From: an uncultured Acidobacteriota bacterium
GTDB taxonomy: Bacteria; Acidobacteriota; Terriglobia; Bryobacterales; Bryobacteraceae
Assembly: GCA_902825945.1 (NCBI GenBank)
Contig: CADECY010000030.1
Span: 1 to 64,000, forward strand
Length of the DNA: 64,000 nt
Direction of reading: 5' to 3'
This document shows, in pieces, positions 43,856 to 60,443 of this stretch (position 1 is its first letter; each line of letters begins with the position of its first letter). The notes below the pieces were generated by a model. It saw only the letters and a program-made list of their open reading frames with translations. It was not told the origin of the DNA and did no database searches. The position numbers and the translations under genes are program-made.

Positions 43856-45349
43856 ATGAAAGAGACTGGAATCAATACTTTAGATCGCGCCACCGGAGGG
43901 TTGCTCTCGCACGGCGCTTACCTGTTGTCGGGCGATCCCGCGACCGGAAAGTCATCGGTCTGTTTGAACTTTCTCCAGCGCGGATTGTCCGCCGGCGAGA
44001 CCGCCGCCATGATCACCTCGAGACCACCCGATCAGGTGATCGAGCATTCCAAGGCAATCGGTTGCGATGTGTCGGCGCATGTCGCCGATCGCACGCTTTT
44101 GATATTCGAATATCCCGAGAACATCGCCGAGGCTGTCGCCACACTCGAGGATCATCAGCACATGCTCGATGAGTTCGTGCAACTGCTCGGGGGGCGGCAG
44201 GTGGACCGGCTGGTGTTCGACACGGCGAGTCCGCTGGTCAGCTCCAATGGCCAGCTCGACGGACGGCGCCTGCGGTCGATGCTGCAAGCGTTCGCCGCGC
44301 TGGAATATTGCGTGATCTATGTGCTCGACACGAATTCGCCCGCGCCTCTGCTGAACTATTGCCGCGACATCGTCTCAGGTTCGATTTGGCTCCAGCGCGA
44401 TCAAATGACGCTCGAGGGATTCGACGGAATGTCGCTGCCCCGGACCGTCGGGTTCGACTCCTCGCCTACCAGCGAGCAGACGCCGCCCACCCCGATCCTG
44501 CCCGAGCGAGCGCCCTCGATCCTGGTGATTGAATCCGACCCGACCCGGCGCATGTTGCTCCGTTCGCAGCTCGAGCGATCCTTCACCGTGCTCGAGGCGA
44601 GCAACGCGATCGTCGCGTCCAATCTGGCGCGAGTGGGCGAACCGCGCGCGATCGTGATCTCGGCCGAAGTCCCCGGGTCGAGCGGCAAGCAACTTGCCGC
44701 GGCGCTCCGTCAGGTAGCGCCCAGCGCGTTGATCGCCGGACTTACCGATTGCTTTCCGCGGCAAACTGATCAGATCTCCGCTCTCGCGGGCGGTGTCGAC
44801 GTCTGCCTGCCCTATGGCGGCGACGATCGAGTCCTTCGTCTGTCCTTATTGAAACTGCTCGAGCGTTTGGGCCCCACGCGCTCGCCGGAGGTTGCGGCGG
44901 AGGCGGGGCGGATCGCGCGGCCTGTCGAACAGGAAACCTTTGCCTTCACCAATGATTTCAAGGCGTTCTGCGGGCGGATCGCGCGCGAAGCTCTCTACGC
45001 GCGTCAGAATGGGATTCCGTTCGCCGTGCTGGCGTTCCGGCTGCCCGAGATTCCGGAGGCGATCGACGAACTTGCCGCCACGCTCGCGAGCCTGATGCAA
45101 TCGCCGGCCGCCGTCTACGCGGGTCCGGCCGGTGTCGCGTGTTTGCTGCCGGAGACCGATTCGACTTCCGCGTTCCTGACGCAATTCTGGAACCGATGGG
45201 AAGGCGCGGTCGCACCGGCGGTGGAAGAAATTCACTACGCGAACCAGGACGCATTCCTGCACAAGGCGCGCGAGTTCGTGCGAACGCGCGTGGCCGCCAA
45301 GTCCAGTGAAACGCGTCCCGCGTTCGCCAGAAGGGCGGTGGGAGCATGA
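43856..45349 (+). CDS. KaiC-like RecA-family ATPase with degenerate receiver domain
   Basis: 497 aa from the ATG at 43856; a GTG at 43841 is in frame. Residues 1-200 are a single KaiC/RAD55-type domain: Walker A GDPATGKSS (residues 26-34), ITSRPPDQVIEHSKAIG, and a Walker B-like RLVFDTASPL. Residues about 222-345 look like a receiver domain (SILVIESDPTRRMLL...IVISAEVPGSSG) in which the phosphoacceptor Asp is replaced (Ser) and the KPF Lys is lost, so it cannot be phosphorylated in the standard way. The last 130 residues are unassigned. Its stop overlaps the TPR gene by 4 nt. Likely a regulator of the operon. Confidence 0.75.
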   Translation: MKETGINTLDRATGGLLSHGAYLLSGDPATGKSSVCLNFLQRGLSAGETAAMITSRPPDQVIEHSKAIGCDVSAHVADRTLLIFEYPENIAEAVATLEDHQHMLDEFVQLLGGRQVDRLVFDTASPLVSSNGQLDGRRLRSMLQAFAALEYCVIYVLDTNSPAPLLNYCRDIVSGSIWLQRDQMTLEGFDGMSLPRTVGFDSSPTSEQTPPTPILPERAPSILVIESDPTRRMLLRSQLERSFTVLEASNAIVASNLARVGEPRAIVISAEVPGSSGKQLAAALRQVAPSALIAGLTDCFPRQTDQISALAGGVDVCLPYGGDDRVLRLSLLKLLERLGPTRSPEVAAEAGRIARPVEQETFAFTNDFKAFCGRIAREALYARQNGIPFAVLAFRLPEIPEAIDELAATLASLMQSPAAVYAGPAGVACLLPETDSTSAFLTQFWNRWEGAVAPAVEEIHYANQDAFLHKAREFVRTRVAAKSSETRPAFARRAVGA

Positions 45350-48297
45350 AGATCCAACTGACGGGTCTGCTGTTCACTTTCATGGCCGCGGGCCCGCTAC
45401 GGGCCGACGATACGCTGGTCAAGGCACTCGAGTTCTATCGCAAGGGGAACTGCCAGGAGGCCAAGCCGTTGCTCGAGCAGGTGCTCGCGCGGCAGCCGAA
45501 AAACGAATCGGTCAAGAAGCTATTGACGATGTGCGTGACGCCGCCGCCCAAGCGTCACGTGGAAACGGCACGCGCGGCGCGCAAGGGGGGACGGGGCGCC
45601 AAGCCGAGTCCGTTGGGCGCGAAACCCGGTGAAGCAGCGAATGTGCCCGCGGCGGGTCCAGCGATAACAGCCGTGCCGGAACCGGCGAGGGTGACCGAGC
45701 GCGATCTTGCTGGTCCCGCGTTCGCGGAAGCCGAGATGCTCATCAAGGCGCATCGCTACGCGAGCGCGGAGAAGCTGCTCATTCCCGTGGTCACTGAAAA
45801 GCCCCGCCTGATTCAGCCGAGGCTGCGTCTCGCCGAGATCTACAGCGCCACGGGCCGCTTCAAGGAAGCCGCGGAACAGTACAAAATCCTGTCGATCCTG
45901 CCTGATGCACAGCCAGAATACACGCTGCGGATCGCCCAGAATCTGATGTGGGCGAAGGACCTACCGGCCGCGACGGACGCGTTCCGGTCGCATCTCGACC
46001 GCCGTGCCAACGATCCCGAGGCGATGGGCGGCCTGGCGAACGTTCTTTTCTGGCAAAACCGCCTCGACGAATCGATTCCGGCCTACCAAAGGTACTTGGC
46101 CACCAGACCTTCCGACAGCGAAGCCCGGCGGAATCTCGCGAAAGCCTTGATGTGGGGCGGCAAGTACACCGAAGCACTCCCTGAGTTCCTCGCCGTGCAG
46201 AAGGCGGCCACATCGAGGGATCCGGTGCTCGAACTTGCGATCGCTCAGTGCTACGAACAGATGGAGAAGCCCGAGGAGGCGCTGGCCGCGTTCGAGCGGG
46301 CGGTGAAGGAAAAGCCCGATCAGAAGGAAGCCGTGGAAGGGCGTGACCGCGTGGCGAAACTCGTGCTGCTGCGCAAAGCATACGAGTTGCAGGAGAAGGG
46401 CGAGTACAAGGCCGCCAGCAAGGAGTTTCTCGGATACCTGGAACGGAATCCTGACGCGGATGAGGTGTTGCTGCAAGTGGCGCGGCTGCACTCCTGGGGA
46501 CAAGATTCGCAGCGGGCTATCACCTACTACGAAGCCTACCTGACCAAGAAGGCGGACGACATCGGGGCGCGGCGAGAACTCGCCAAGATCCAGATGTCGA
46601 TTCCCGACTTCGAAGGAGCCCGCCGTTCCTTCGCGTCGATCATCGAATCCGGCTCGCCGGTGCCAGCCGACTATGAAGGCATGGTGAACGCGAATCTGTG
46701 GGAAGGCCACTACGACGCTCTGCTGCCGTTCCTCGAGCAATTGAACCGCCTCGATCCGGACAGCGAAGTGGCGCGGAACGCGAACTCGGTGATCGGCTCG
46801 CGGTTGCGCGCGCAGGAGCTCGACAAGGCGCGGGTTCTCGCTTCGACCGGCAAGTTCTCCGACTCGCTTCAGGCCTACCGGAAGTTCGTGCAATCCTACG
46901 GAGCCGATCGCGAGATCGAACTCGCGATGGCACGGTTACTCGCCTGGGACGGTCAGGCGGCGAAGTCGATTCAGGCCTATCAAGAGTATCTGCATCGCTA
47001 CAGTCTGGATCATTCCGCGCGGCTCGAACTCGCCGATCTCGAACGCTGGAACGGAAAGCCGAAGGAAGCCGAATTCGAATACAACGAAGTGCTGAAGTCC
47101 GATCCATCGAGCACGCAGGCCAAATTCGGCTTGGCGCAGATCTCCGATCAGCGGGGCGACGACCGCTTCCTGGTCTACAACTCCTATCGCGACATTCTCG
47201 GCACGGATCCGGCGCACCGGGTCTCGCGCGACCGCCTCGGCGACATCGCGCCGCGCGTGTCACCCGCGGTCCGGTATGGCCAGCTCAACTTTCACGACTC
47301 CGACCAATTCAGCCGATCCATCAACACCCTCGAGGCGATGTTCCCGCTGCGCGGCGGTTTACGGATCTCGCCGCTCGTCCGCTATGGGCAATTCAATCAG
47401 TTCCGCCAAGTGGGCGGCGCCAACTGCGATGCCGGACCACAGGGACTCCAGGGTGCCTCGATCCGCCAGATCTCGGAGACGATCTGCTCGTCGAAGGGCA
47501 ACATGAAGGGGCTCGGCGGCGGGATGCGGCTCGATCTGGCTCCCAAGGAATCGGTGCTGCTTTCGCTCGAAGCGGCCAGCATGCAGCTCGATCGCGTCAC
47601 ACTGAAGCGTTGGACCCCGATGGTCTTCGCGGAACTCGTGGTGAGCCCGAAGCCGCGTACTCGCATGGTGCTCGCCTTCCGCCACCGCGACGCGATCTAT
47701 GACGTGAATACGCTTTCGACTCTGGTCGCGGGTATCACGTCGACGACCGCGGAAGCGAGCTTCGAAGTTCCGTTGAACGAGCGCTGGAACTTCTGGGTCT
47801 CGGGCGGCGGAGCGCGGTTCTCGCGCGGGCGTCTTCCGGGTTTCGACGACAATACGCAGCGCCGAGTCACGGCGCGTGCCAACTATCAGATCACCGACTT
47901 CATCACCGCCGGCTACTACGTTCGCGCCAGCGGATTCCGCCGATACTCGCCGCTCTATTTCAGCCCCGAGTTCTACGGCACCACGGGAGTTTCCTGGACA
48001 TGGGACAAACCCATGTCCAAAACCTTTCGGCTGGTAGGTGACCTCGAAATCGGCTACGGCCGGATCAACCGCTACGACACCGGCGGCGTCGGCAATATGG
48101 AGATTTCGCTCTATCCGGCCTTCGTCTGGGATGTCCGCCAGGACCTCTCCCTGCGCCTCGGCTACCGCTTCGGACGGGGCCGTTCGAGCGCGTTCGGTTC
48201 ACCCTCCTACACGACGGGAAACCTCGATCTCGGGTTGACGAACTACTTCGTTCCCCTCATGCCCCGAGCCAATCCGAACCGAATCGAGATCCGCTAG
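45346..48297 (+). CDS. TPR and outer-membrane beta-barrel protein (PgaA/BcsC-like export porin)
   Basis: 983 aa. Signal peptide KIQLTGLLFTFMAAGPLRAD. From about residue 120 to 620 run roughly twelve tetratricopeptide-like repeats (ARLRLAEIYSATGRFKEAAEQYK, GGLANVLFWQNRLDESIPAYQRYL and others). From about 640 to the end come alternating aromatic/polar strands (ISPLVRYGQFNQF; RWNFWVSGGGARFSRGRL; FITAGYYVRASGFRRYSPL; LSLRLGYRFGRGRS), a C-terminal beta-barrel ending in LGLTNYF. That architecture is PgaA/BcsC/AlgK-E: periplasmic TPR scaffold plus export barrel for exopolysaccharide. Next to the synthase, 16 nt downstream. Confidence 0.75.
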   Translation: MKIQLTGLLFTFMAAGPLRADDTLVKALEFYRKGNCQEAKPLLEQVLARQPKNESVKKLLTMCVTPPPKRHVETARAARKGGRGAKPSPLGAKPGEAANVPAAGPAITAVPEPARVTERDLAGPAFAEAEMLIKAHRYASAEKLLIPVVTEKPRLIQPRLRLAEIYSATGRFKEAAEQYKILSILPDAQPEYTLRIAQNLMWAKDLPAATDAFRSHLDRRANDPEAMGGLANVLFWQNRLDESIPAYQRYLATRPSDSEARRNLAKALMWGGKYTEALPEFLAVQKAATSRDPVLELAIAQCYEQMEKPEEALAAFERAVKEKPDQKEAVEGRDRVAKLVLLRKAYELQEKGEYKAASKEFLGYLERNPDADEVLLQVARLHSWGQDSQRAITYYEAYLTKKADDIGARRELAKIQMSIPDFEGARRSFASIIESGSPVPADYEGMVNANLWEGHYDALLPFLEQLNRLDPDSEVARNANSVIGSRLRAQELDKARVLASTGKFSDSLQAYRKFVQSYGADREIELAMARLLAWDGQAAKSIQAYQEYLHRYSLDHSARLELADLERWNGKPKEAEFEYNEVLKSDPSSTQAKFGLAQISDQRGDDRFLVYNSYRDILGTDPAHRVSRDRLGDIAPRVSPAVRYGQLNFHDSDQFSRSINTLEAMFPLRGGLRISPLVRYGQFNQFRQVGGANCDAGPQGLQGASIRQISETICSSKGNMKGLGGGMRLDLAPKESVLLSLEAASMQLDRVTLKRWTPMVFAELVVSPKPRTRMVLAFRHRDAIYDVNTLSTLVAGITSTTAEASFEVPLNERWNFWVSGGGARFSRGRLPGFDDNTQRRVTARANYQITDFITAGYYVRASGFRRYSPLYFSPEFYGTTGVSWTWDKPMSKTFRLVGDLEIGYGRINRYDTGGVGNMEISLYPAFVWDVRQDLSLRLGYRFGRGRSSAFGSPSYTTGNLDLGLTNYFVPLMPRANPNRIEIR

Positions 48298-48313
48298 GTA
48301 AAACGCAGGGTCC

Positions 48314-49627
48314 ATGCTCAGAAAGACAGTCCAGATCGCCGCGATCGCCATCTTGGCGCTACTCGTATTGGGCATCGTGACGGCTGTCTACTTCGATGTC
48401 TACGTTTCGCGGCTTCTCGTTACCGACCTGTTCGTCAAGGTGGCGGGAACCCTGTTTCTGGTTTTTCTCATCGTGATGCTGCTCCGCTACACGACTCTGT
48501 TGGTGCTCGCGCTGATCTACCAGATCAAGAATCCGCCGCTCATGGCCGAACTCAGCGCGTATCCGATGGTCACGATGATCCTGCCCGCGCACAACGAGGG
48601 TCCGGTGATTCAATCGTCGATTCGCGGCGCCATGGAGATGGACTATCCGAACTTCGAGGTCCTCGTGCTCGACGACGGATCGACGGACGATACCTACGCC
48701 CGCGCGCTCGAGCTGGTGCCCGACTATGGCGGAAAACTCCAGGTGATCACGCAGAAGAACGGCGGCAAGTCCACCGCGCTGAACAATGGGATCTCGCGGG
48801 CCCGGGGCGAGTTCGTGCTGTGCACCGACGCCGACTCGCGCCTGGAACCGCAGACGCTGCGCGAGGCAATCAAGCATTTCGACGATCCGGAAGTGGTGGC
48901 GGTGGCGGGCAACGTCAAGATCGCGAATCGCCTCAACATCCTCACGAAACTGCAGACCCTCGAATACATCCAGGGACTGAACCTCGTGCGCGCGGCGCAG
49001 GCCCTGCTCCAGAAAATCACCGTGATCCCGGGGCCCTCCGGCGTATTCCGCAAGCAGGAGGTCATCGATATCGGCGGCTACCTGACCGACACCTTCGCCG
49101 AGGATTGCGACCTCACCCTCCGGCTCATGCTTGCGGGCAAGCGCATCAAGTACGAGCCGCGCTGTGTCGCGTGGACCGAGGCGCCCGAAAAGCCGCATGC
49201 GCTGTTCAAGCAGCGCTACCGTTGGGGGCGGGGAATTCTCCAGGCGATACTCAAGCATCGCGTGGCGCTGTTCAGCCCGCGGCGGGACTTTCTCGCGTGG
49301 GTGATGCTGTGGAACATGGTCTTCGAGAGCATCGTGATGGTGGGAATGAACTTCAGCGGTATCCTGATGTTCTTCCTGATGGCTTTGGGCGGCGGACTCT
49401 CGTCGCTGGTGTTCCTGTGGTGGGTCGTGTTGACACTGCTCGACGTATTGGCGGCGGTGTTTTGCATTACGGCCGAGGAGGAAGATTACTCACTCGTGCC
49501 CTACGCGATTTTTTACCGCCTTTTCTTCATCCCTTACGTCGACTCGATGCGGTTTTTCGCGACTTTGGACGAACTATTCAAGGTGCGGATGGGCTGGTTC
49601 ACGCAGCAGCGGATGGGAAGGATCTAG
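48314..49627 (+). CDS. Processive family-2 glycosyltransferase (PgaC-like)
   Basis: 437 aa. Two N-terminal transmembrane helices (residues 8-27, 43-67), GT2 domain and C-terminal helices (about 330-410). Processive synthase motifs are complete: VLDDGSTDDT (Asp120-Asp121), DAD (172-174), the base-bearing AEDCDL (262-264) and QRYRWGRG (300-307, QxxRW). HNEGPVI, SGVFRK and GGYLTDTFAEDC are as in PgaC/IcaA-type N-acetylglucosamine synthases. It polymerises a beta-linked sugar in the inner membrane and extrudes it; exact sugar not determined. Between the barrel protein and a small membrane gene 3 nt away. Confidence 0.85.
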   Translation: MLRKTVQIAAIAILALLVLGIVTAVYFDVYVSRLLVTDLFVKVAGTLFLVFLIVMLLRYTTLLVLALIYQIKNPPLMAELSAYPMVTMILPAHNEGPVIQSSIRGAMEMDYPNFEVLVLDDGSTDDTYARALELVPDYGGKLQVITQKNGGKSTALNNGISRARGEFVLCTDADSRLEPQTLREAIKHFDDPEVVAVAGNVKIANRLNILTKLQTLEYIQGLNLVRAAQALLQKITVIPGPSGVFRKQEVIDIGGYLTDTFAEDCDLTLRLMLAGKRIKYEPRCVAWTEAPEKPHALFKQRYRWGRGILQAILKHRVALFSPRRDFLAWVMLWNMVFESIVMVGMNFSGILMFFLMALGGGLSSLVFLWWVVLTLLDVLAAVFCITAEEEDYSLVPYAIFYRLFFIPYVDSMRFFATLDELFKVRMGWFTQQRMGRI

Positions 49628-49630
49628 ACC

Positions 49631-49966
49631 GTGGACATCGAAATCTATTCACTTCTGGCGACATCGATCCTGTTGATCAGTCTGGCGACGATCGTGTTCT
49701 CGATCTACTCCTACATTCTGTTCCGGGTGCGGGAAGGCAGAAAGCTGAAGAAGTCCGGCGGCCACGGCCACGCCAGCGCGGCGCCTGACCCGGCCGAGGC
49801 GGAGCCTGAAGTCATTCCGTTCGAAACGGCCAGCGCTCCTGAGTCTGCCGGCTTGGCCTCGTTGGCGGCCGCGGTGGGCACCGGTGTGCCACCGCGACGG
49901 GCGGAGCCAGCGAAGGTCTCGAGCGCTTCCGGACGCTTCTTCAAGCCGTACGACCCGGGGACATAG
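49631..49966 (+). CDS. Small membrane protein of the synthase operon
   Basis: 111 aa from a GTG start at 49631. One transmembrane helix (residues 8-30, LLATSILLISLATIVFSIYSYIL), then a basic cytoplasmic boundary (RVREGRKLKKSG) and an Ala/Pro/Glu-rich, probably disordered tail ending RFFKPYDP. By position it parallels the PgaD/BcsB-type companion of a GT2 synthase, but no sequence similarity is apparent, and PgaD has two helices. Gap to the next gene is 3 nt. Confidence 0.55.
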   Translation: MDIEIYSLLATSILLISLATIVFSIYSYILFRVREGRKLKKSGGHGHASAAPDPAEAEPEVIPFETASAPESAGLASLAAAVGTGVPPRRAEPAKVSSASGRFFKPYDPGT

Positions 49967-49969
49967 ATC

Positions 49970-51814
49970 GTGAACAAGAAGCGGCGAATCCCGTTCGGCG
50001 TTTGGCTGGGCCTTTCGTGCCCGGCCATCTTCGCCATTCAGGTGGTCGCCTATATGAATATCGTCGATCGTACGGTGGGTGCCTTCCCGCTCAGCAAGCG
50101 GCTGAACTGGATGGGCGCCGAGGAGGTTCCGGCCAAGGCGGCGGTGCTGAAGTCCGCGTTCAGCTCCGTTCGAAGCCAGCGTCCGGAAGACTACTACGAT
50201 CTCGCCTCCTTCTGGCAACACCAGTTGAAAGCGGAAACGATGGAGTTCGCCGTGATCGACGACGCGCAACTGGCCAAGGGGCTCGGGAAGTCGTTCAGTG
50301 TGCTGATTCTGCCGTGGACGGTCTGCATGAGCGACGAGCAGCGGCGCGCGGTGCGCGAGTTCGTGCGCGCGGGGAATGGACTGGTGGCTTCGGGAGCGGT
50401 GGGCGCTCGCAACTCCGACTGCAGTTGGCATGGCTGGGATTTCGCGCAGGAGATCACCGGGCTCGACGATTTTCAAAGTGTCACGCCCGAGGCCGGAACA
50501 TTCGCCGGATTCCGGGGTGGCCAGTTCTACTCGGCCGGCGTGCCCGCCGGGCTGCGGTTGGACCTTCCCTTGCAGGAGATCACCTACGGCTGGTCGGACA
50601 ATCCCGATGCCTATTGGTCTGATCCGCGCTCCCGGCCGAAGGAAGGAACGCTTCCCTCGGAGGTGGGCCTCGCGGTGCACACGGAATGGGGAGCGGGACG
50701 GGTCGTGTGGATGGGCTTCAACGAACGGATGACCGGCGCGAAGGAGCCCAATCTGACGAAGTTCCGTGACAACTACGCGCGTGCCTCCATCCGCTGGGTG
50801 AGCCGGCAGCCGATGATCGTGGTGGGCGAATGGCCGAATCGAATGGCCTCGGCCGCGATGATCGCCGCCGACGCGGGCGACGATGCCTCGGCGGCCTCGC
50901 GCCTGGTTGATGCGTTCGCTGCGCAGCGTGCCGCCGCGACTCTGTTCGTTTCGCCCGGCGGTGCACCGAATTCCGATGATCTGAAGAAGAGCCCCTGGAC
51001 CGAGGTTGCCGCCGCGCACGATCCCGAGAGTCTCGTCACCGACAGCAACGTGATCAACCAGGTGAAGGCGTTGACCGATTCGCGCCAGACGCTCGAATCG
51101 CATCTGAAGCGCCCGGTCGCCGGATACAAACCGCCGCAGGATTTCTGGACCATCGACACGCTGGTCGCGCTTCGGACATCCGGTTATCGCTACTTCCTCG
51201 ATCGAACCGGTAATCACCGTTCCGCGCCCGAGATTGTCGAGTTCCCTTCCACCACGTGGTTCGGAAGCAAGGTGGAGGTGATGAAAATCGCCTCGGGCTG
51301 GGCCGGTGAACTCGAGACCATCGCCGATTACGATGGCCCCTCGCCTTGGCAGGACGACATGGGTGATTCATTCGTTCGCGACGTCGATCTGAATGGCTAT
51401 CTCGGTGGAGCCTATGTGTTCAATTTCAGCTCGCGGCTGCTCGGTTCGGAATCGCATGAGCACATCGTACGCTCGGTGATTTCGCGTATCCAGCAGAAGC
51501 CGGTGTGGCTTGCGACCGGGAGCTGGATCGGTTCCTGGTGGTCGGCTCGTGAGAAGGTCCGCGTCGAGGCGCGCCAACTGCACCAGCATCGAATCCGGGT
51601 GTCGGTGGTGAACCGTGGCCGGTCGACGATGGATAACGTCAACGTCTATCTGCATCTGCCCTACCGGCCCGACAAGGTCCGTTTGATCTCGGAGTTCATC
51701 GACAAGACACCTCCGTCGAGCGAACTCGTTCCGGGAGCCGACGTCTTGCGTCTCGATTTTCCGAAGCTCGAAAAGGAGAGCAGCCACGTCTTTCTCGTGG
51801 CATTGGACGAATGA
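49970..51814 (+). CDS. Membrane-anchored NodB-like deacetylase-like protein, degenerate
   Basis: 614 aa from a GTG. Signal anchor at 9-28. Residues about 60-280 look like a GATase1/ThuA-type Rossmann-like domain (SVLILPWTVCMSDEQRRAVREFVRAGNGLVASGA; GAGRVVWMGFNERM). Residues about 285-430 resemble a NodB polysaccharide deacetylase: MIAADAGDD (Asp301, Asp304, Asp305) for the metal Asp, AAHDPES (His350) for one metal ligand, KPPQDFWTIDTLVALRTSGYRYFLDR for motif 3. The usual HxxxH pair is reduced to a single His, so catalysis may be lost or altered. The C-terminal 150 aa are a beta-rich part. It overlaps the GH18-like gene by 4 nt. Confidence 0.65.
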   Translation: MNKKRRIPFGVWLGLSCPAIFAIQVVAYMNIVDRTVGAFPLSKRLNWMGAEEVPAKAAVLKSAFSSVRSQRPEDYYDLASFWQHQLKAETMEFAVIDDAQLAKGLGKSFSVLILPWTVCMSDEQRRAVREFVRAGNGLVASGAVGARNSDCSWHGWDFAQEITGLDDFQSVTPEAGTFAGFRGGQFYSAGVPAGLRLDLPLQEITYGWSDNPDAYWSDPRSRPKEGTLPSEVGLAVHTEWGAGRVVWMGFNERMTGAKEPNLTKFRDNYARASIRWVSRQPMIVVGEWPNRMASAAMIAADAGDDASAASRLVDAFAAQRAAATLFVSPGGAPNSDDLKKSPWTEVAAAHDPESLVTDSNVINQVKALTDSRQTLESHLKRPVAGYKPPQDFWTIDTLVALRTSGYRYFLDRTGNHRSAPEIVEFPSTTWFGSKVEVMKIASGWAGELETIADYDGPSPWQDDMGDSFVRDVDLNGYLGGAYVFNFSSRLLGSESHEHIVRSVISRIQQKPVWLATGSWIGSWWSAREKVRVEARQLHQHRIRVSVVNRGRSTMDNVNVYLHLPYRPDKVRLISEFIDKTPPSSELVPGADVLRLDFPKLEKESSHVFLVALDE

Positions 51815-52836
51815 CCCGCGCTCTCCTGCTTTTCAGTTCCGTTGTCGCCGCGGCCGCCGATACGCGCCCCTCGGCGCATTTCTACTTCGTGGGTGACGTT
51901 GCCGGAACCCAATCGCTCGAATTGAACGCCGAGCATATCCGGGTCTTGTCGCCCGTCTGGATTTTCGTGCGTCCCAACGGCGAGTTGAAGGTGAACGTCG
52001 ATCCGAAGGTGTTGGGGCTCGCCGCCGCCTACAAGATCGAACTCTGGCCGGTCGTCATGAATCAGGACTTCCGCCTCGACATCGCGCGAGCCGTTCTGAG
52101 CGATCCGAAGAAGGTGGATGCGCTTGCCGGCAAGCTCGCCTCGACCGCGGCAGTGCACCGGTTCCAAGGGTTGCAACTCGACTTCGAGAACATCGAAACT
52201 CCCGAACGGGCGGGCTACACGAGATTGACGCAGAAGCTGCGCCACGCTCTCGGCCGGCATGAAATCGGGCTCAGTGTTGCTGTCGCCGCGCCCCTCTATT
52301 CGACCGGTGGCAAGGATGGCAAGCCGCTCGAATGGCACGAAACGAAGCGCTCGGAGGCGTTCGACTACGAGCAGCTCGGCGCGGCTTCGGACTTTCTCAC
52401 GCTGATGTCGTATGACCAGTACGCGACACCCGAAGCGCCGGGTCCGGTGGCCGGAATCTCGTGGATGGAAGCCTGTGTCAGGAAGCTGCTCGAATCGGTT
52501 CCGGCGCAAAAGATCCAATTGGGACTGCCGCTCTATCACCGTCGCTGGAGCGGATCGGTGATCTCGACTGGAAGCTGGGCGGAAGCGCAAACAGCCGCTA
52601 TCAAGGCGGGCGTTCCCTGGAAGCTCGACCCGCTGCATGACGAGCCGGTCGTCCGGTTCCAGGAGGGCACGGTCCAGCACACGATCTGGTTCGAGGATGC
52701 GCGCAGCCTGGCCCGCCGGATGGAGTTGATCCACCGGTATTCACTGCGTGGATTCTCGGCGTGGCGCCTCGGCCAGGAAGACCCTTCGGTATGGCCGGTG
52801 CTGTTTGCCGGCCGCGGCTCGGGAGGCTGCCGGTGA
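51811..52836 (+). CDS. Secreted GH18-like glycosidase/PgaB-C-like protein
   Basis: 341 aa with signal peptide TRALLLFSSVVAAAAD. A GH18-type TIM barrel: LQLDFENIE (Asp124, Glu126; the DxxDxDxE catalytic strand, with the first Asp of the motif replaced by Gln), LTLMSYDQYATPEAPGP (the YDxY strand) and IQLGLPLYHRRW. GH18 cleaves chitin-like beta-1,4-GlcNAc; the PgaB C-terminal domain is a related, degenerate barrel binding PNAG. Together with the preceding gene it makes a split PgaB. The stop overlaps the PEGA gene by 4 nt. Confidence 0.7.
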   Translation: MTRALLLFSSVVAAAADTRPSAHFYFVGDVAGTQSLELNAEHIRVLSPVWIFVRPNGELKVNVDPKVLGLAAAYKIELWPVVMNQDFRLDIARAVLSDPKKVDALAGKLASTAAVHRFQGLQLDFENIETPERAGYTRLTQKLRHALGRHEIGLSVAVAAPLYSTGGKDGKPLEWHETKRSEAFDYEQLGAASDFLTLMSYDQYATPEAPGPVAGISWMEACVRKLLESVPAQKIQLGLPLYHRRWSGSVISTGSWAEAQTAAIKAGVPWKLDPLHDEPVVRFQEGTVQHTIWFEDARSLARRMELIHRYSLRGFSAWRLGQEDPSVWPVLFAGRGSGGCR

Positions 52837-53717
52837 TCGGACCCAAGCTTCCTTTGTTCGCTGTGCTGACGGGGATCCTGCTCGTGCCGGCGGATCTGGT
52901 GATCGAAGCCCGGCGCGACACCGTCTTCGTGCGGGCTGACGCCGATCTTCAATTGCGCCTGCTGCACACCGTTTCATCCTCGGAGTCGCGCTTGAACGAA
53001 CATGTCGATTTCGAGGTGGTCGAAGACCTCGTGCAGGACGACATGGTCGTTATTCCGCGCGGCAGCAAAGCCTGGGGTGTGGTGACGGCGGTCGAGCCGA
53101 AGAGCCGGCTGCGCAGGAACGGCAAGCTCGATATCGACTTGCAGGCCGTCTGCCTGCCTGATGGATCCGGAGCGGCGCTACGTGCCTACCGCCGTGGTTC
53201 GACGCAGGTGCCGGGCGATCAGCCTTCCGCGGGCGACAGTCTGTTCGCGCTGCCCGCGCTGCCGGTGCTGGTGTTCCTGTACGGCAAGGATGTCACGATT
53301 CCGAAGGGTCGCGAGTTCACCGCCTACCTCGGCGAAGATATCGACGTGAAACGCACGCGCGGACGTCCCGCGCCGTCGGGCAACTGCTCGTCTCCGGCCG
53401 AACGCGAAGCGGCGCGCAAGGCGCCGGTGATCGTGCAGCCGGACCTATCGTCAGTCATCGTGCGATCGAAACCCGAAGGTGCCGAGATTCTGCTGAATGA
53501 CCGGTTCATGGGGCAGACGCCCGCGACACTGCGTCTCCAGCCGGGCGAATACAAACTGCGTCTGTCATTGCCGAACAAAGCCAAGTGGGAGCGGACGGTA
53601 GTGATCACGCCCGGTGGCGACAGCACGATTCAGGCGTCGCTCGAAAGCACGGTGCCCGACCGCGTGACGGACCCGGCGCCGTGGCGCAAAACCACCGAAA
53701 AGGCCGCTCAACGATGA
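52833..53717 (+). CDS. Exported PEGA-domain protein
   Basis: 294 aa from the GTG at 52833, overlapping the previous stop by 4 nt, with GGGAGG upstream. The N-terminal hydrophobic stretch (LPLFAVLTGILLVPADLVI) is a signal or anchor. Residues about 45-160 have a beta-rich fold (SSESRLNEHVDFEVVEDLVQDDMVVIPRGSKAWGVV) seen in acidobacterial PEGA proteins. The C-terminal PEGA domain is SSVIVRSKPEGAEILLNDRFMGQTPATLRLQPGEYKLRLS. PEGA modules bind surface layers or glycans. Part of the operon. Confidence 0.7.
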   Translation: MIGPKLPLFAVLTGILLVPADLVIEARRDTVFVRADADLQLRLLHTVSSSESRLNEHVDFEVVEDLVQDDMVVIPRGSKAWGVVTAVEPKSRLRRNGKLDIDLQAVCLPDGSGAALRAYRRGSTQVPGDQPSAGDSLFALPALPVLVFLYGKDVTIPKGREFTAYLGEDIDVKRTRGRPAPSGNCSSPAEREAARKAPVIVQPDLSSVIVRSKPEGAEILLNDRFMGQTPATLRLQPGEYKLRLSLPNKAKWERTVVITPGGDSTIQASLESTVPDRVTDPAPWRKTTEKAAQR

Positions 53718-53727
53718 GGAGTATCAC

Positions 53728-54309
53728 ATGAAAGCCATCGTCTCCGTCTTTCTTTCCTTCCTTCTGTGTACCGCTGGTTTCGGCCAAACGGGCGACCTCA
53801 CGATCGTCGTCCACGATGGCGAAGGCGCGGTCCACAATCTGCGCCGCAAGGCTGTCAGCCCGGTCGCCGTCGAGGTGCGCGATGAGCGCAATCGTCCGGT
53901 GCCGGAAGCCAAGGTGCGCTTCGTGATGCCCGAAATCGGGCCCGGCGGACGCTTCGTCGATGGCAGCCGGACGCTCGAGACCTTCACTGATGAACAGGGC
54001 CGCGCGGGATTCTCGTCGTTCGTGCTGAACGAACACGAGGGACGCTTCAGCGTCACCGTCACCGCGATCGCGAAGGGCCGCGAGGCAGGCACCGCGATTA
54101 CGCAAATCGCAAGCCGTTTCCTCGAGCCGAGTGCCCGCCCGGAGCAACCGGCGATTCATCGCCGTTCGAGCAAAGGCCTGGCGATCGTGCTGGGAATCGG
54201 CGCGGCGGCCACGCTGGCCGGAGTGCTGGCGAGCCGTGGTGGCGCGGGTCCGGGAACGCCTCCTGTTTCGATCGGAGTGGGCGGAGTACAAGTGGGAGGG
54301 CCTCGTTGA
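53728..54309 (+). CDS. Exported Ig-like (Big_1/carboxypeptidase-regulatory-like) membrane protein
   Basis: 193 aa. Signal peptide KAIVSVFLSFLLCTAGFG. An Ig-like or carboxypeptidase-regulatory-type domain (SPVAVEVRDERNRPVPEAKVRFVMPE, TFTDEQGRAGFSSFVLNEHEGRFSVTVTA), then a C-terminal hydrophobic helix (LAIVLGIGAAATLAGVLAS) and a glycine-rich tail. GAGGAG upstream of the ATG. Probably an anchored extracytoplasmic structural protein. The stop overlaps the next gene by 4 nt (TTGA). Confidence 0.6.
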   Translation: MKAIVSVFLSFLLCTAGFGQTGDLTIVVHDGEGAVHNLRRKAVSPVAVEVRDERNRPVPEAKVRFVMPEIGPGGRFVDGSRTLETFTDEQGRAGFSSFVLNEHEGRFSVTVTAIAKGREAGTAITQIASRFLEPSARPEQPAIHRRSSKGLAIVLGIGAAATLAGVLASRGGAGPGTPPVSIGVGGVQVGGPR

Positions 54310-55277
54310 ACCGGCTTCTTGCCGCTTCGATTCTGATTGCATCTTCCACGTCCGCTCAGGTTCAGTTGTCCGGCATGCGATCCGGGTACGTGGTGGATGA
54401 AGCCACGAGTGTGCTTCGTCCCATTGTCGGACTGCCGGGCTCGGCTTATCTCGGCCGCGCGATTCCGTTGCCTTTCCTGGCCGCCTCGGCGATTGCCGTT
54501 GCCGGTGGCAGTTCGCTGATCGTCAATTCCACCGGAGACGAGCCGCATGCTTATCTCGTTCGCAAGCTCGATGAGCCCGAGCCGGAGGCGATCCGGCTTG
54601 CACCCGCCGATCGTGTCTTTGCGGGAATCCGCGCCAACACGGCGCTCCTCTATTCGGCGCGAGAGGGAATCGTGAGGCTCGTCTTCGCGCTCGACAAGGC
54701 TCCTTCCACCGGCCCCGAAGTCCGCGAGGCTGCCCTCGGAGGAAAGCCTGTAGCGGGCGCGATCGACGAAGAGTCCGGCTGTGCCTGGCTCGCGGTGCGT
54801 TCGGAGGACACCGCGATCGTGTCGCTGTGTCCGGACCGGCCCGGCGAGCCGCGCGTGCAACGGCAACTCGGTCCGATCGATATCACCACGATGACCTATT
54901 GGAAGCGTAACGGGCTTCTCTTCGCCCAACGTAAGGAACATCGCGTGTCGATCCTGCGAGCACCGATCGCGACCGGGATGCAATCGATCGTCGCGTCGGC
55001 GGGCGACGGACTCGCCGATCCGGCCGGGATACAGCCCGCGCCTGGGGCACGTATCGTGATCGTGCAAGGCGAGCCGGCGCGGTTGATGATCGCCGATCCG
55101 TCACGCAAGGACCCGCCCGTGTTCGCGGATCTTCCGGTCGCCGCCGAACTGCTCGACTATCTTTCGCCCGATCGAATTCTGTCGGTGAATCGAGTGAGCG
55201 CATCGCCACTGGTAGTGCTCGATGCCGAGCAGGAGTTCGCATCCTACTACATTCCTCCAGCGGGGGATCCGGAATGA
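54306..55277 (+). CDS. Exported propeller-like hypothetical protein
   Basis: 323 aa from a TTG start in a TTGA overlap. Signal peptide NRLLAASILIASSTSA. Repeated blade-like strands (SSLIVNSTGDEPHAYLV; SREGIVRLVF; SGCAWLAVRSEDTAIVSL; NGLLFAQRKEHRVSIL) suggest a beta-propeller of LVIVD/NHL style, but no motif fixes the family. Probably an extracytoplasmic recognition protein. Overlaps the following gene by 4 nt, ATGA. Confidence 0.5.
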   Translation: MNRLLAASILIASSTSAQVQLSGMRSGYVVDEATSVLRPIVGLPGSAYLGRAIPLPFLAASAIAVAGGSSLIVNSTGDEPHAYLVRKLDEPEPEAIRLAPADRVFAGIRANTALLYSAREGIVRLVFALDKAPSTGPEVREAALGGKPVAGAIDEESGCAWLAVRSEDTAIVSLCPDRPGEPRVQRQLGPIDITTMTYWKRNGLLFAQRKEHRVSILRAPIATGMQSIVASAGDGLADPAGIQPAPGARIVIVQGEPARLMIADPSRKDPPVFADLPVAAELLDYLSPDRILSVNRVSASPLVVLDAEQEFASYYIPPAGDPE

Positions 55278-57430
55278 GGCCGCGCGCCGCCATCTTCGCG
55301 CTTGCGCTTTCGATGCCGCTTTCGGCTCAGATCGGCGGACTCTCGTTCTCCTACCAAACCGCGCCCACCGTGGGTGCCATCGCTCTTGCTCCGGGTGGAA
55401 CCGTCCCGTTCCCGCAGACGCAGCAAGGCTTCACTTCGACGGTGACGTTCCTGGTCTCCAATCGTGACCAGAATCCGTGGACGCTTTCCGAAGCTCAGGC
55501 GGAAGGTGCCGGATTCACGCTTACCTGGCAAACCGGACCCATCATCAACGGCGGCACGCGATTCCTGTCGATCCACTTCTCTCCTGCCGCCGCCGGTTCG
55601 ACCGCGGGGATTCTGACGCTGCGCTTGAGCGGATCCAATGGAGCCACGGCCACGCCGTCGTTCCAACTCGCGGTGCGCGGCGAATCGGGCCAGACATCTC
55701 CGCAAAACGCCGCGATCATCAGCTTCATCAACTACAACGGCGGCAATCAGACGATTCTCAACAACGGCGACACGATCCAGTTTCCCGCGACGACGGTTGG
55801 CGTACGCGGGTCACTCGCGGTCGTGGTGAACAATCGCAACGTCACCGGGCCGATCGCCCTCGAATCGGTCGCGGTGACCGGCTCGTACTTCGACTCGTCG
55901 GGCGTGACGCTTCTTCCCGCATCGATCGTTGGCGGCGGCGAGATGCGTTTCAGCATCGGATTCATCCCGATCGAGCCCGGTGAGTTCACTGGAACGATCG
56001 CGATCAAGGTGAGCGGCGTCACCCACGTCTTCTTCCTGCGCGCGCTCGCCCAGGCGGCAATCCTCGAACTCGAGATGATGGCAGGCGACGCGATCACGCG
56101 CGTCACTCCGAACGACACCATCGAATTTCCGCGCACGAGCACGGCGGGCGGGCGTAACGTGATCCGCTTCCGTCTGCGAAACAGCGGTAACGCGGAGGGG
56201 CGTTGGGGAGTCATCGCGGTGAGTGGATCTTCGTTCCAACTCATCGACCCACCCGCGCCGGGCATCATTCGCCCGGGCGAGATTCTGCCATTCTCGATCG
56301 CTTTCACGCCGCGAGAAGTGGGCGACCATCGCGGACAACTCCGCCTCGATAACACGCAGTGGGGTCTCGCGGGGAAAAGCTCGGGTCCGCAACTGCTCAT
56401 GTCGCTGGTGTTCGGCGATGTCGTCGTGGCGCTGAAGCCCACCGGCTTCTCGGTGATTCCGAACACCGATATCGGCGGGCGCCGCACCTTCTGGATCGAG
56501 GTGGCGAACACGGGCGATGAGGTGGGATTTCTCGCCGCGGTGTCGATCGTGGGTGAAGGATTCGCGCTGAGCCGCTCGCAGCAGTTCCCGATGCCGGTTC
56601 CGGCCGGACAGGCCGTGCGGATCGAGGCGCTCTTCGCACCCACCCAGATCGGAACGGTGGAAGGCAAGCTAGTGGTCCACGACACTTCCTACAACGTGAT
56701 CGGAGTCGCGAACGAACCGCCGCCGCTTCCCGCCGCGACCTTCGTGGGGATCCCGCGCCTCGCCGAAGCGCTTCAGCAGCCCGCCGCCGCGCTCGAACTC
56801 GCCGAGCCGTATCCGTACGATCTCACCGGCAGACTGATCCTGAGCTTCTCTTCCGAGTCGCTGATCGACGATCCCGCCGTGCAGTTCGTCAGCGGTAATC
56901 GCACGGTTGACTTCCGCATCCCCGCGCGCACCACGCGGGCCATCTTCGGATCGTCGCTGCGCGAGATTCGCTTTCAGACCGGGAGTCTCGCCGGAACGAT
57001 TACGCTGGTGGCGCAGATCTCGGTCGGGAAGTATGACTTGACGCGTGCCACGCCGCCGCTTGCCACGATCGACGTTCCGGCCGGACCGCCGGTGATTCGA
57101 AGCGTGCTGATCTCGCCACGGTCGGGACGCGCCATCGATGTGATCATCAGCGGGGCTTCTCCGGCGCGATCGGTGTCGCGGCTGTTGCTCGGATTCACGC
57201 CATCGCCCGGCGCCCGACTGCAGGTGACGTCGCTCACCGTCGATGTCGGGGCGCAGTTCGAAACGTGGTATCAGAGTTCGAACTCGCGGCCCTACGGTGG
57301 ACAATTTACAGTGAATCTGACGCTCGAGTTTTCGAGCGACTACAGCGCCGTCGCGTCAATGGCGGTGCGCGCTGCCAATGGACTGGGGACTTCCGCGGCC
57401 AAGACGGTGACGGTTACCTCGCGCGATTGA
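55274..57430 (+). CDS. Large secreted protein with repeated ASH/choice-of-anchor-D domains
   Basis: 718 aa. Signal peptide RPRAAIFALALSMPLSAQ. At least three immunoglobulin-like ASH (ASPM/SPD-2/Hydin) repeats, each built of TVTFLVSNRDQNPWTL / SIHFSPAAAGSTAGILTLRLSG-type strands, near residues 40-135, 155-265, 280-390 and 405-500; then a beta-rich C-terminal part with RSVLISPRSGRAIDVIIS. ASH modules are adhesive and structural. Last gene of the operon, in a 4-nt overlap with the previous gene. Candidate surface or matrix protein. Confidence 0.65.
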   Translation: MRPRAAIFALALSMPLSAQIGGLSFSYQTAPTVGAIALAPGGTVPFPQTQQGFTSTVTFLVSNRDQNPWTLSEAQAEGAGFTLTWQTGPIINGGTRFLSIHFSPAAAGSTAGILTLRLSGSNGATATPSFQLAVRGESGQTSPQNAAIISFINYNGGNQTILNNGDTIQFPATTVGVRGSLAVVVNNRNVTGPIALESVAVTGSYFDSSGVTLLPASIVGGGEMRFSIGFIPIEPGEFTGTIAIKVSGVTHVFFLRALAQAAILELEMMAGDAITRVTPNDTIEFPRTSTAGGRNVIRFRLRNSGNAEGRWGVIAVSGSSFQLIDPPAPGIIRPGEILPFSIAFTPREVGDHRGQLRLDNTQWGLAGKSSGPQLLMSLVFGDVVVALKPTGFSVIPNTDIGGRRTFWIEVANTGDEVGFLAAVSIVGEGFALSRSQQFPMPVPAGQAVRIEALFAPTQIGTVEGKLVVHDTSYNVIGVANEPPPLPAATFVGIPRLAEALQQPAAALELAEPYPYDLTGRLILSFSSESLIDDPAVQFVSGNRTVDFRIPARTTRAIFGSSLREIRFQTGSLAGTITLVAQISVGKYDLTRATPPLATIDVPAGPPVIRSVLISPRSGRAIDVIISGASPARSVSRLLLGFTPSPGARLQVTSLTVDVGAQFETWYQSSNSRPYGGQFTVNLTLEFSSDYSAVASMAVRAANGLGTSAAKTVTVTSRD

Positions 57431-57529: not shown

Positions 57530-58882
57530 ATGACCCTCGAGAAATACCGCCAGACGATACCCGTCGCGGGTCTACTGATGGCCGCCGCCATTTGCAGGCG
57601 TCAGGATCTTTCGCAAAACAAGCCTCCGGCCAATTCCAAGGCCACGGCCGTCTCCGAACCCTGCCTCGCCGATCCGAACTGGATTCAGTCGCCGAGCCAA
57701 CCTGACTTCCAATCGGACCCAATGAGCGTGTGCGCCTTCCATCAGTACGCGTGGCGGTCGTTTCTCTTCCTGACGAGTCCGTCGCCCGTAGGGGATCTGA
57801 TTTTCGAGACGTTTCCGTCGATCGATGACGTGTTCGGACGCAAGGCCTCGCCCTCCGCGAAGACTCTCGTGAGCGCCAACACGAAAAAGGTCCGCTCGTT
57901 CGTGCCCCGCGTGAACAAGCCCAGCCGCGTCGAGCCGTTTACCGATGACCTGCAGGCAGGGCCGGGTGGAGTTCTCGTTGCTCAGAGCAATGACGTTACC
58001 TACTATGAGCAACTGCTCGATCCCACAGGCGTGGGCTTCGTGAAGAGCTGCGACCTGACGGTTTTCGATTGCCAAGCGCAACCGGCGGCGAAGGATCTGC
58101 GGTTACCGGCCGGCGCAATCGAGGTCAAGGCCTCGTGGGTGCCGATGTCGAAGTCGCACCCGAACGCGAATCTCTTTTACAAAATCAACGGTTTCGCAGT
58201 GCAGAGGCCGGATGGTTCCACCTATGTGCCAGACTTCATGGCGCTCACCGGCTTCCACCTGGTTTTCGCCACCAAGGGCCATCCGGAATTGATCTGGGCG
58301 ACCTTCGAGCATGTTGCCAACGCTCCGGACGGGCCCTGTGTTCCGGGCGCACCGCCACCCGCGCCGTTTCAAAGCTGGACGTTCAACAACCTGAAGGACA
58401 CCGATTGCTCGCCGACGCACATCAACCAGTTCGTCAAAGGCGCCAAACCAGGTTCGAAACCGCCTCCTCCAATCAATCAAGTGGTACGGGTGACACCGTC
58501 CGGGGGCGGAGACCCGGAGAATGTGGGCGACATCAAGTCGCTCAACGCCTCCGTGCTCGCCCAACTGTCCGCCGAGTCCGTCTGGCGGAACTACTTCCTC
58601 GTTGGTACGATCTGGACGAAGGGCGGCAACCTTCCTCCCTCGACATCGAACGAAGCCGGTTCGACGTTGCTCGCCAATGCCACGATGGAGACGTTCCGGC
58701 AGAACAAGAACTGCTTCGACTGCCACACGAACGCGACCGGTTCCAGCCAGGCCGCGCCGCCCTTCCTCGTCAGTCACGCCTTCCCGTTCCAGGGCAGTTC
58801 CAAGCCAGCGTGCTCATACACGTCGACTCTGCCGAAGGCCTGCGCGGCGACTCAGCCTCCCCCATCGCCTCCGGCGAAATGA
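57530..58882 (+). CDS. Exported CxxCH-motif (mono-haem-like) protein
   Basis: 450 aa. AAAGGAG lies 10 nt before the ATG. N-terminal hydrophobic stretch (IPVAGLLMAAAIC) is a signal; a Cys near residue 22 may be lipidated, but the lipobox is poor. The C-terminal half ends with NKNCFDCHTNATGS (Cys395, Cys398, His399), a c-type haem motif. Upstream CAFHQYAWRSFLFLTSPSP and FMALTGFHLVFATKGHPELIWATFEH are conserved-looking but unassigned. Possibly an outer-surface redox protein; its specific partner is unknown. Confidence 0.6.
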   Translation: MTLEKYRQTIPVAGLLMAAAICRRQDLSQNKPPANSKATAVSEPCLADPNWIQSPSQPDFQSDPMSVCAFHQYAWRSFLFLTSPSPVGDLIFETFPSIDDVFGRKASPSAKTLVSANTKKVRSFVPRVNKPSRVEPFTDDLQAGPGGVLVAQSNDVTYYEQLLDPTGVGFVKSCDLTVFDCQAQPAAKDLRLPAGAIEVKASWVPMSKSHPNANLFYKINGFAVQRPDGSTYVPDFMALTGFHLVFATKGHPELIWATFEHVANAPDGPCVPGAPPPAPFQSWTFNNLKDTDCSPTHINQFVKGAKPGSKPPPPINQVVRVTPSGGGDPENVGDIKSLNASVLAQLSAESVWRNYFLVGTIWTKGGNLPPSTSNEAGSTLLANATMETFRQNKNCFDCHTNATGSSQAAPPFLVSHAFPFQGSSKPACSYTSTLPKACAATQPPPSPPAK

Positions 58883-58899: not shown

Positions 58900-58926
58900 T
58901 TGCCGATGCCCGCGGCGCGGTATGAT
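58900..58926 (+). promoter_or_regulatory. Candidate promoter of the CehA/McbA gene, possibly leaderless
   Basis: TTGCCG (58900-58905) and TATGAT (58921-58926) with a 15-bp spacer. TATGAT is a good -10 and ends 8 bp before the GTG at 58935, so transcription could begin on or near the start codon. There is no ribosome binding site upstream of either the TTG (58926) or the GTG. Confidence 0.3.
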
Positions 58927-58934
58927 TGGGCGCT

Positions 58935-60443
58935 GTGTGGATCATCATTCTCCTTTCGGCGCTCGACATTTCAGCGGCTGAACTCCGCATCAACCTGGTG
59001 GACCAGAAGCGCCTGCCGGTCACGGCGAGGCTCGAGGTCCATGGCCCGGATGGCAAGGCGCACCAGCCGGCGGAGGGTTCGATTCCGAGCCTTCCGCCCG
59101 GCCGTTCCCCAACCGGATCGCCTTATCTGCGATCCTTCGTGACACGAACCGGGCAAGTCACTCTCCAGGTTCCCGAGGGGCGCTACAAGATCGTCGCCGA
59201 ACGCGGACTCGAACACGAGCGAGTGACGGTCGAAGCCGATACCGCGCGGCCGGGCCCGATCGAGATCCGGATGCGGCCTTGGATCGACATGCGCCGCCGA
59301 GGCTGGTGGAGCGGTGACTTGCATGTGCATCGTCCGATGGCGGACGTGCCCGCCCTGCTCGCCGCCGAGGATCTCTCGTTCGGTGCGGTGTTCACAATGT
59401 GGAACAAGCAGAACATCTGGGGCGATTCACCGCTTCCGGGGGACTGGATTCGCAAGACCGGCCCACGCCAGTGGATGTCGATCACCAATGCGGAAGACGA
59501 ACGCGGCGGCGGCGCTTGGATGCTGCACGGACTCGCGGCTTCGCTCGGCATCGAAAAGGTGCTCGAACCCGCGGCTCGCGCCACCGAAAGTTGGGATCCG
59601 CCGGGCATCGAATTCGTACGTTCCGCGCGCCGACAGAAACAGGTTGGGGGGGTGTTTCCCTGGTTCGATCTCGAGAAGCCGATCTGGTGGGAGGCACCCG
59701 TGATGATGGCACTCGAGCGGCCGGACTCGATGGGATTGCTCCACAATCACTATGACCAGTACGGCATGTACGATAACGAAGCCTGGGGCCGCAAGCGGGA
59801 CCTCGCGAAATTTCCCGGACCCGGCGGGTTCTCCGATTACTCGCTCCACCTGATGTATCGTTACTGGAACCTCGGCTGGCTGGTGACGCCCACGGCGGGA
59901 GCCGCGAGCGGCGTGCTGCCGAATCCGGTTGGTTACAACCGGACGTATGTCCGGATGGACGGCGATTTCGCGGTCGAGAAATGGTACGCCGGACTGCGAG
60001 CGGGTGGCGGGCGCGTGATGGTGTCGAACGGCCCACTGGTGTTCTTGTCGCCGCAGTTCGCGGAGGGGCGGATTGGCGGCGGCACCGTCGAGGTGTTATC
60101 GCGGGAGCCGATCGAGCGGGTGGAGATCGTCGCGAACGGAACCGTGGTTCAAAGCTGGAAACCGGGCGGCCGGCGGTTTCGATCAAAAGTGCGAGTGGAG
60201 GGCGCGGATCGTCACAGTTGGGTTGCGGCCCGAGCCTATTCGGTGAATGACCTTACGGTGCGGCTCGGACACACCTCGCCGGTTGCGATTCCCGGCGGCG
60301 GCTGGGACAAACGTGCCGATGCGCGCTACTTCCGCGAATGGGTCGAGGAACTGGCCCGGAATCCGCGGACGCCCCGCGAATCGAAGGCGGGTAAGCTTTA
60401 TTCCGATGCGCTCGAGGTGTATCGGCTGATGGAGCGGGACTAA
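58935..60443 (+). CDS. CehA/McbA-family metallohydrolase
   Basis: 502 aa from the GTG at 58935; a TTG at 58926 gives three more residues. Signal-like N-terminus (WIIILLSALDISAAE). N-terminal Ig-like region with LVDQKRLPVTARLEVHGPDG, then the PHP-like metal motif WWSGDLHVHRP (Asp, His, His at about residues 128-132) as in CehA/McbA phosphoesterase-like proteins. LHNHYDQYGMYDNEAWG and MVSNGPLVFL are later conserved blocks. CehA and McbA are carbamate hydrolases, so ester or carbamate cleavage is possible. Exported; substrate unknown. Confidence 0.75.
   Translation: MWIIILLSALDISAAELRINLVDQKRLPVTARLEVHGPDGKAHQPAEGSIPSLPPGRSPTGSPYLRSFVTRTGQVTLQVPEGRYKIVAERGLEHERVTVEADTARPGPIEIRMRPWIDMRRRGWWSGDLHVHRPMADVPALLAAEDLSFGAVFTMWNKQNIWGDSPLPGDWIRKTGPRQWMSITNAEDERGGGAWMLHGLAASLGIEKVLEPAARATESWDPPGIEFVRSARRQKQVGGVFPWFDLEKPIWWEAPVMMALERPDSMGLLHNHYDQYGMYDNEAWGRKRDLAKFPGPGGFSDYSLHLMYRYWNLGWLVTPTAGAASGVLPNPVGYNRTYVRMDGDFAVEKWYAGLRAGGGRVMVSNGPLVFLSPQFAEGRIGGGTVEVLSREPIERVEIVANGTVVQSWKPGGRRFRSKVRVEGADRHSWVAARAYSVNDLTVRLGHTSPVAIPGGGWDKRADARYFREWVEELARNPRTPRESKAGKLYSDALEVYRLMERD

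Follow-up and report, generated by a model that had tools for sequence, protein, structure and literature searches.

We analyzed a window of 64,000 nucleotides (nt) of DNA from an uncultured Acidobacteriota bacterium of the family Bryobacteraceae (GenBank assembly GCA_902825945.1, contig CADECY010000030.1, positions 1 to 64,000), in which ten plus-strand genes, A to J, at positions 43856-57430 probably encode a synthase-dependent exopolysaccharide secretion system. The existence and position of these ten frames, as given in a preliminary description of the DNA, could be confirmed. The intergenic distances are -4 (A/B), 16 (B/C), 3 (C/D), 3 (D/E), -4 (E/F), -4 (F/G), 10 (G/H), -4 (H/I) and -4 (I/J) nt, i.e., five 4-nt overlaps and a maximum gap of 16 nt as described earlier, with a GTG start at 52833 giving G its 4-nt overlap with F. 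Promoter- and terminator-like sites within the run are not in excess of those in shuffled sequence. All ten genes are found, with their order kept, in two other genera (loci L081 and L082), and a third genome from another family (L083) has A-E, G, H and J in the same order, its operon being without a GH18 gene; this synteny excludes a chance arrangement. Pfam matches agree with the earlier domain assignments for KaiC, TPR, family-2 glycosyltransferase (GT2; PF00535, PF13641 and PF13632), GH18, PEGA and ASH/HYDIN-like repeats, and D and I are left unmatched in the Pfam search of the window proteins.

Gene C (48314-49627) codes for a GT2 with two N-terminal and several C-terminal predicted transmembrane (TM) segments, and its DDG, D-x-D (DAD in the window), AED and QRYRW motifs are kept across relatives. 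The best curated model for C is PgaC_IcaA (TIGR03937) with 204 bits against a cut-off of 422, a model on which Escherichia coli PgaC scores 648 bits as a control; the NodC, MftF and CelA models trail far behind (CelA at 68 bits, with 699 as its cut-off). Hyaluronan and cellulose synthases appear among the solved-structure relatives of C. A tree of 114 GT2 domains places the window protein in a clade of 13 with a support of 92/99, together with three relatives from the window's order, L084 (another genome of the phylum), four Gemmatimonadota- or Gemmatimonadetes-titled loci and one close to them, one Verrucomicrobia locus and two Proteobacteria metagenome-assembled genome (MAG) loci. The clade is separate from E. 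coli PgaC and from fusion proteins of the GH18-NodB-GT2 type (60 rows, support 97/99). Across 396 genomes of the phylum (order and phylum being the ranks used by the genome search), five stand-alone synthases score at least 518 bits and the fused proteins (~1100-1250 amino acids, or fragments) at most 318 bits, with a clean gap between them, and three of the five stand-alone-synthase genomes yielded the additional loci L197-L199. C is predicted to be a processive GT2 making a polymer, in line with its earlier assignment as processive. A non-processive transferase acting on a surface glycolipid or glycoprotein, with B as a surface assembly protein, would also be compatible with a GT2 fold, which by itself is no proof of polymerization; the weaker-matching HpnI and MftF families are non-processive, and B also resembles Slam-type TPR domains. 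However, the comparison with curated models that had been proposed as a check places the processive PgaC_IcaA on top and HpnI and MftF below it, the clade keeps the QRYRW motif and TM layout of processive synthases, and the hydrolase, CBM and PelA-like partners suit a polymer, which makes the non-processive reading very unlikely.

The adjoining gene D (49631-49966) encodes a small protein with one predicted TM helix, a basic juxtamembrane stretch and a C-terminal (R/K)FFxxYxP motif, and has no match in Pfam or NCBIfam. In L084, D carries a C-terminal extension of ~70 residues. We compared 16 loci, i.e., the 13 of the GT2 clade and L197-L199 from the phylum-wide search. A profile of D matches all of them, adjoining the synthase, and has no match in the eight control loci, whose synthases are fused. 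Among the 396 genomes of the phylum, matches at E<=1e-15 are confined to the five stand-alone-synthase genomes, always beside the synthase, and the next match is at 8.5e-4; five phylum loci helped build the model, so that presence there is by construction and absence elsewhere is the informative part. Comparison of the D family with E. coli PgaD using hhalign gives a probability of 1.1%, in agreement with the earlier view that the small membrane protein is unrelated to PgaD, and comparison with BcsF (PF11120) gives 0.7-1.0%; the tails look alike by eye despite the lack of measured similarity. As judged from these profiles, D is a new protein family and a marker of the system.

Gene A (43856-45349), at the head of the run, had been called a KaiC-like ATPase. 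Pfam identifies the KaiC domain with an E-value of 2.5e-15, and Response_reg and GGDEF_2 matches fall below their cut-offs. The RecA/KaiC-like domain therefore stands, but it belongs to a three-domain, BcsE-like regulator in which it is followed by a pseudo-receiver (the phosphorylatable Asp is absent from the window protein) and a degenerate GGDEF domain. A KaiC clock function is rejected on account of this fusion of a single RecA domain and the absence of Kai partners from the run. The same three domains occur in the same order in BcsE. The E. coli protein consists of a RecA-like domain and a degenerate REC-GGDEF tandem, binds cyclic di-GMP (c-di-GMP) at an RxxD motif and reaches the membrane with the help of BcsF, a short protein (PMC7439463). 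An hhalign comparison of the A family with a BcsE family alignment built from nine sequences yields a probability of 95.9 over 443 columns (98.0 in global mode; 443-498 columns) and a score of 51.8, against a maximum of 25.6 in 60 column shuffles. The C-terminal half alone reaches a probability of 90 and the N-terminal half 20-43, against 0.1-0.3 for swapped-half controls. This result is one pairwise profile comparison with controls and not a database search: A was matched significantly by the BcsE family profile but not by a lone BcsE sequence, and the BcsE Pfam model (PF10995), searched against the genome that the window comes from, found nothing at E<=1. A and BcsE share an architecture, and the profile match would fit shared descent and independent joining of domains alike. 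Searched against the PDB, the profile of the degenerate GGDEF domain finds GGDEF proteins and PelD, and the I-site of this domain reads RxxD in six of 12 members and R-x4-D in five of 12; A is probably a c-di-GMP receptor in most relatives. The Walker A loop is broken in L090:6023-7552, L091:6053-7570 and L082:3379-5124 (GAPGPEKM, GNAQEAKS), with the remainder of the protein retained. Since the loop is broken in several lineages, ATP hydrolysis by A seems dispensable.

Gene B (45346-48297) encodes a secreted protein with TPR repeats up to residue ~620 and a C-terminal region (residues ~631-983) that is likely an outer-membrane beta-barrel. The curated polysaccharide porin models give at best 47.8 bits for BcsC and 48.1 bits for PgaA (TIGR03939, cut-off 367), both well short of their cut-offs and the latter over the TPR part only, and E. 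coli PgaA scores 979 bits as a control. The C-terminal region is conserved, and amphipathic strands exceed those of shuffled sequence in the window protein (p 0.02) and are likewise abundant in several, not all, relatives; a profile of this region found no relative among solved structures. The TPR matches uphold the first part of the earlier assignment, a TPR-plus-barrel outer-membrane protein, and the barrel is probable.

The product of gene E (49970-51814) consists of a TM anchor, a GATase-like or GH42M-like domain, a CE4 (NodB) barrel and a beta-sandwich. Pfam does not detect the NodB part, and a ThuA-like match lies below the cut-off; the CE4 fold was found via a PDB profile search and a structure model. 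The model, with a predicted local distance difference test (pLDDT) score of 70.7, has an N-terminal helix, the GATase/GH42M-like domain at residues 52-280, the CE4 barrel at 283-529 and the beta-sandwich, and its best structural match is PDB identifier 3rxz with a Z-score of 22.9. PelA (PDB identifier 9cgy) could be superimposed on residues 51-529 with a Z-score of 16.2 and a root-mean-square deviation (rmsd) of 14.1 over 364 residues, a large value indicating that the domains match one by one and that their mutual placing differs. PelA requires an Asp/Asp/His/His set of residues (PMC12022489). Both metal-binding His residues of motif 2 are lost in E of the window (A..E), L081, L082 and L083, and the motif-5 His is lost in the first three of these and kept in L083. 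The motif-1 Asp and the HxxxH are kept in L084, L086, L087 and L089, whereas the motifs are partly eroded in L090, L092 and L095. L084 has tandem copies of E (L084:8549-10474 and 10929-12857), both with the deacetylase motifs. A shorter E lacking the NodB domain is present in L088, L197 and L198, where the profile matches the N-terminal part with a probability of 97.4; no E was found at L199. The ligand loss and the NodB-less proteins of some lineages argue that what is conserved is the anchored alpha/beta domain, and that deacetylation can be dispensed with. With both metal-binding His residues absent, an active deacetylase in the window is rejected, and E of the window lineage is, by its predicted domains and missing ligands, a membrane-anchored PelA-like pseudo-deacetylase. 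The CE4 fold behind the earlier NodB-like label is thus confirmed by profile search and model, and the functional deacetylase is not. Nor did a simple splitting of PgaB between E and F hold: E is an N-terminally anchored two-domain PelA-like protein, and F is a GH18 protein, a family to which the hydrolase domain of PgaB does not belong.

The locus is rare, being found in four of the 200 genomes of the order, and hence not a general trait of that order; it was not found in one other genome of the window's own genus that was searched. All 16 loci carry C and D, and 15 of the 16 carry E; B is present in every one of its 15 testable loci and A in 13 out of 15, with contigs ending inside some loci (L089, L091) and with trees and profiles resting on few sequences. 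Other phyla have the B-C-D core, in most cases together with A and E, but not G-J; among the loci compared, these four genes accompany the core in the window's order only. The ten genes as one conserved unit, as first proposed, are therefore rejected; the distribution supports a core of A-B-C-D-E and a lineage-specific set of F, G-J and a CBM2 protein, and the four secreted or envelope proteins G-J are a local addition to the core.

In this lineage-specific set, F (51811-52836) is a secreted protein with a Glyco_hydro_18 match (E-value of 1e-19) in which D124 and E126 of the GH18 D-x-E motif (DFE) are invariant, so that the GH18-like assignment and the catalytic residues both hold. G (52833-53717; PEGA, E-value of 2e-13) and J (55274-57430; ASH, E-value of 8e-11, and choice-of-anchor-D repeats, choice_anch_D at 84 bits against a cut-off of 45) are secreted proteins and syntenic in L081-L083. 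The secreted protein I (54306-55277) has weak orthologues in L081 and L082 (26-30% identity) and a weak match in L083 outside the operon order. H (53728-54309) is also secreted, and its earlier Ig-like label is backed by a Big_1 match that exists but lies under the Pfam cut-off. Relatives of H occur in 178 of the 200 genomes of the order (E<=1e-3), and H is therefore not a hallmark of the locus; the label of matrix proteins given to the secreted genes is likewise not borne out. The H family is often multi-copy, and its members combine an Ig-like domain with a hydrophobic stretch near the C-terminus and an end of the VGGVxVGGPR type. Downstream of J lie two more plus-strand genes, at 57530-58882 and 58926-60443, after gaps of 99 and 43 nt; they have no significant Pfam match and are not conserved with the locus.

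The list of ten genes overlooked an eleventh member on the other strand, at 41422-43656, which encodes a secreted protein of 744 amino acids (from the ATG) with two CBM2 domains (E-value of 1.7e-34), an Ig-like stretch and, at the C-terminus, an alpha/beta barrel resembling those of glycosidases. The gene also adjoins the operon in L081 and L082 (divergent) and in L083 (downstream), and at E<=1e-40 the protein is found, among the 200 genomes of the order, only in the four locus holders. Within one genome, a second copy lies convergent to the first (L081:16661-18967 and G476:C389:21997-24267). The first CBM2 domain most resembles modules carried by chitinases, and the second those of the cellulose-binding Cex. 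In a structure model with a pLDDT of 65, residues ~315-740 match GH53, GH10, GH26 and GH6 barrels with Z-scores of 11-13, a fold assignable to superfamily level only, with many GH families tied. These modules bring in the possibility of a cellulose-like system, in which C would make a beta-1,4-glucan under BcsE-like control and the tandem-CBM2 protein would bind the product; the regulator, the Cex-like domain and the barrel all point that way. The score of C for CelA, the lack of BcsB, PilZ and GH8, the N-acetylated sugars indicated by GH18 and the CE4 fold, and the chitinase-type first CBM2 domain speak against it, and we consider it unlikely.

The synthase-dependent systems for cellulose, poly-beta-1,6-GlcNAc (PNAG), Pel and alginate are the best-studied biofilm-polymer machines. 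The likeness to PgaABCD and IcaABD lies in a PgaC-like GT2 with a small membrane partner, a TPR-plus-barrel exporter, a CE4 fold and a glycosidase; the window differs in that the CE4 part of E is inactive, tethered to the membrane and placed behind a GATase-like domain, GH18 replaces the hydrolase domain of PgaB, and a BcsE-like regulator is present. From the pgaABCD logic proposed in the preliminary description, the processive GT2, TPR-barrel, hydrolase and small partner are retained, but not the split PgaB or the deacetylase. A divergent pga operon would make PNAG with E and F in place of PgaB and D in place of PgaD; it gains from PgaC_IcaA being the best curated model for C, from the presence of TPR-barrel, NodB fold and hydrolase, and from the small partner that PgaC likewise has. 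Against it, both cut-offs (PgaC and PgaA) are missed by proteins whose E. coli counterparts far exceed them, C lies in another clade, D is unrelated to PgaD, and E has lost its deacetylase site although PNAG export includes partial deacetylation. An identity with the E. coli-type pga system is rejected on the cut-offs, the clade and D, and a divergent pga operon is quite improbable.

The type II Bcs system of E. coli resembles the locus in its regulator of RecA-like, pseudo-receiver and degenerate GGDEF domains, its one-helix protein of ~60-110 amino acids and its TPR-barrel exporter, and differs in its synthase; BcsA/PilZ, BcsB, BcsQ, BcsR and BcsG are lacking here, D has no detectable similarity to BcsF, and many A proteins retain the Walker A loop. 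E shares with PelA the order of alpha/beta domain, deacetylase fold and beta-rich part, and the degenerate GGDEF domain of A resembles that of PelD; unlike the Pel system, however, E lacks the hydrolase domain and metal triad of PelA, the synthase is a GT2 and not PelF, and PelG is missing from the gene set. The GH18-NodB-GT2 fusions, which are frequent in this phylum and in many more, combine the same three domain types, but in a single chain with a canonical TFDDG/HxxxH deacetylase and in a separate synthase clade, and A, D and E are absent from the eight controls. GT-PgaB fusions have been reported in a 2020 survey of synthase-dependent operons that was built from known seeds and whose main text names neither Acidobacteria nor Gemmatimonadota (PMC7112194). 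The text of PMC7112194 and PMC7439463 does not describe this gene set, and a literature search over open-licence papers found no title or abstract describing it, consistent with the earlier remark that no such system was known.

The gene set, its synteny, the synthase clade, the domain make-up, the ligand loss in E and the BcsE-like profile of A can be read directly from sequence, and we regard it as fairly probable that the locus encodes a variant of synthase-dependent exopolysaccharide secretion not described so far. From these we infer an export route, with its order of events. C and its partner D would polymerize a sugar from a nucleotide donor and thread the chain across the inner membrane, where the anchored E would take it at the periplasmic face as a scaffold, its deacetylase role gone in this lineage. 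Guided by the TPR part of B, the chain would reach the outer-membrane barrel of the same protein, GH18 (F) would trim it, and the secreted CBM2 protein would bind or cut exported chains. The cytoplasmic A would act as a switch that docks on the synthase via the cytoplasmic FFxxYxP tail of D and gates it, by analogy with the docking of BcsE via BcsF. An N-acetylglucosamine polymer that stays acetylated here is somewhat favoured because of GH18, the CE4 ancestry of E, the chitinase-type CBM2 domain and the PgaC-like score, and a glucan stays possible because of the BcsE-like switch and the Cex-like CBM2 domain. More tentatively, and with considerable doubt, the locus could represent a multi-phylum class of machine, in which D serves as adaptor between a stand-alone PgaC-like synthase and a BcsE-like ATPase-loop regulator, and in which the deacetylase has here turned into a scaffold for a fully acetylated, chitin-like polymer.

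Several points weigh against the interpretation as a secretion system of this kind. D has no sequence link to BcsF or PgaD, the match of A to BcsE could reflect independent joining of common domains, and the barrel of B is weakly supported, with no porin family above cut-off. The window copy of A has QSPA at the I-site, which is neither RxxD nor R-x4-D, and may have lost c-di-GMP sensing; control by c-di-GMP, plausible for the A family, is for this reason doubtful for the window copy. Genes for a BcsB-like protein, a PilZ protein or acetylation are missing from the gene set, the best relatives that bear a name are MAGs of uncultured organisms, and no experiment on any member was found in the literature.

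These genes represent one more synthase clade, marked by the new small protein D, and point to BcsE-type control beyond cellulose. In E, a deacetylase domain is seen to degenerate in some lineages and to disappear from others within a conserved export protein, and D with the A-D pair yields a concrete prediction for the docking of a regulator on its synthase. Elsewhere in the phylum, two genomes have a LytR_cpsA_psr protein and an NAGPA phosphodiester glycosidase flanking the core (L197:6682-7743 and L198:14671-15729; L197:7995-11450, N-terminus, and L198:13779-14672), the latter being fused to B in L197, which suggests that the polymer is attached to the envelope in these lineages.

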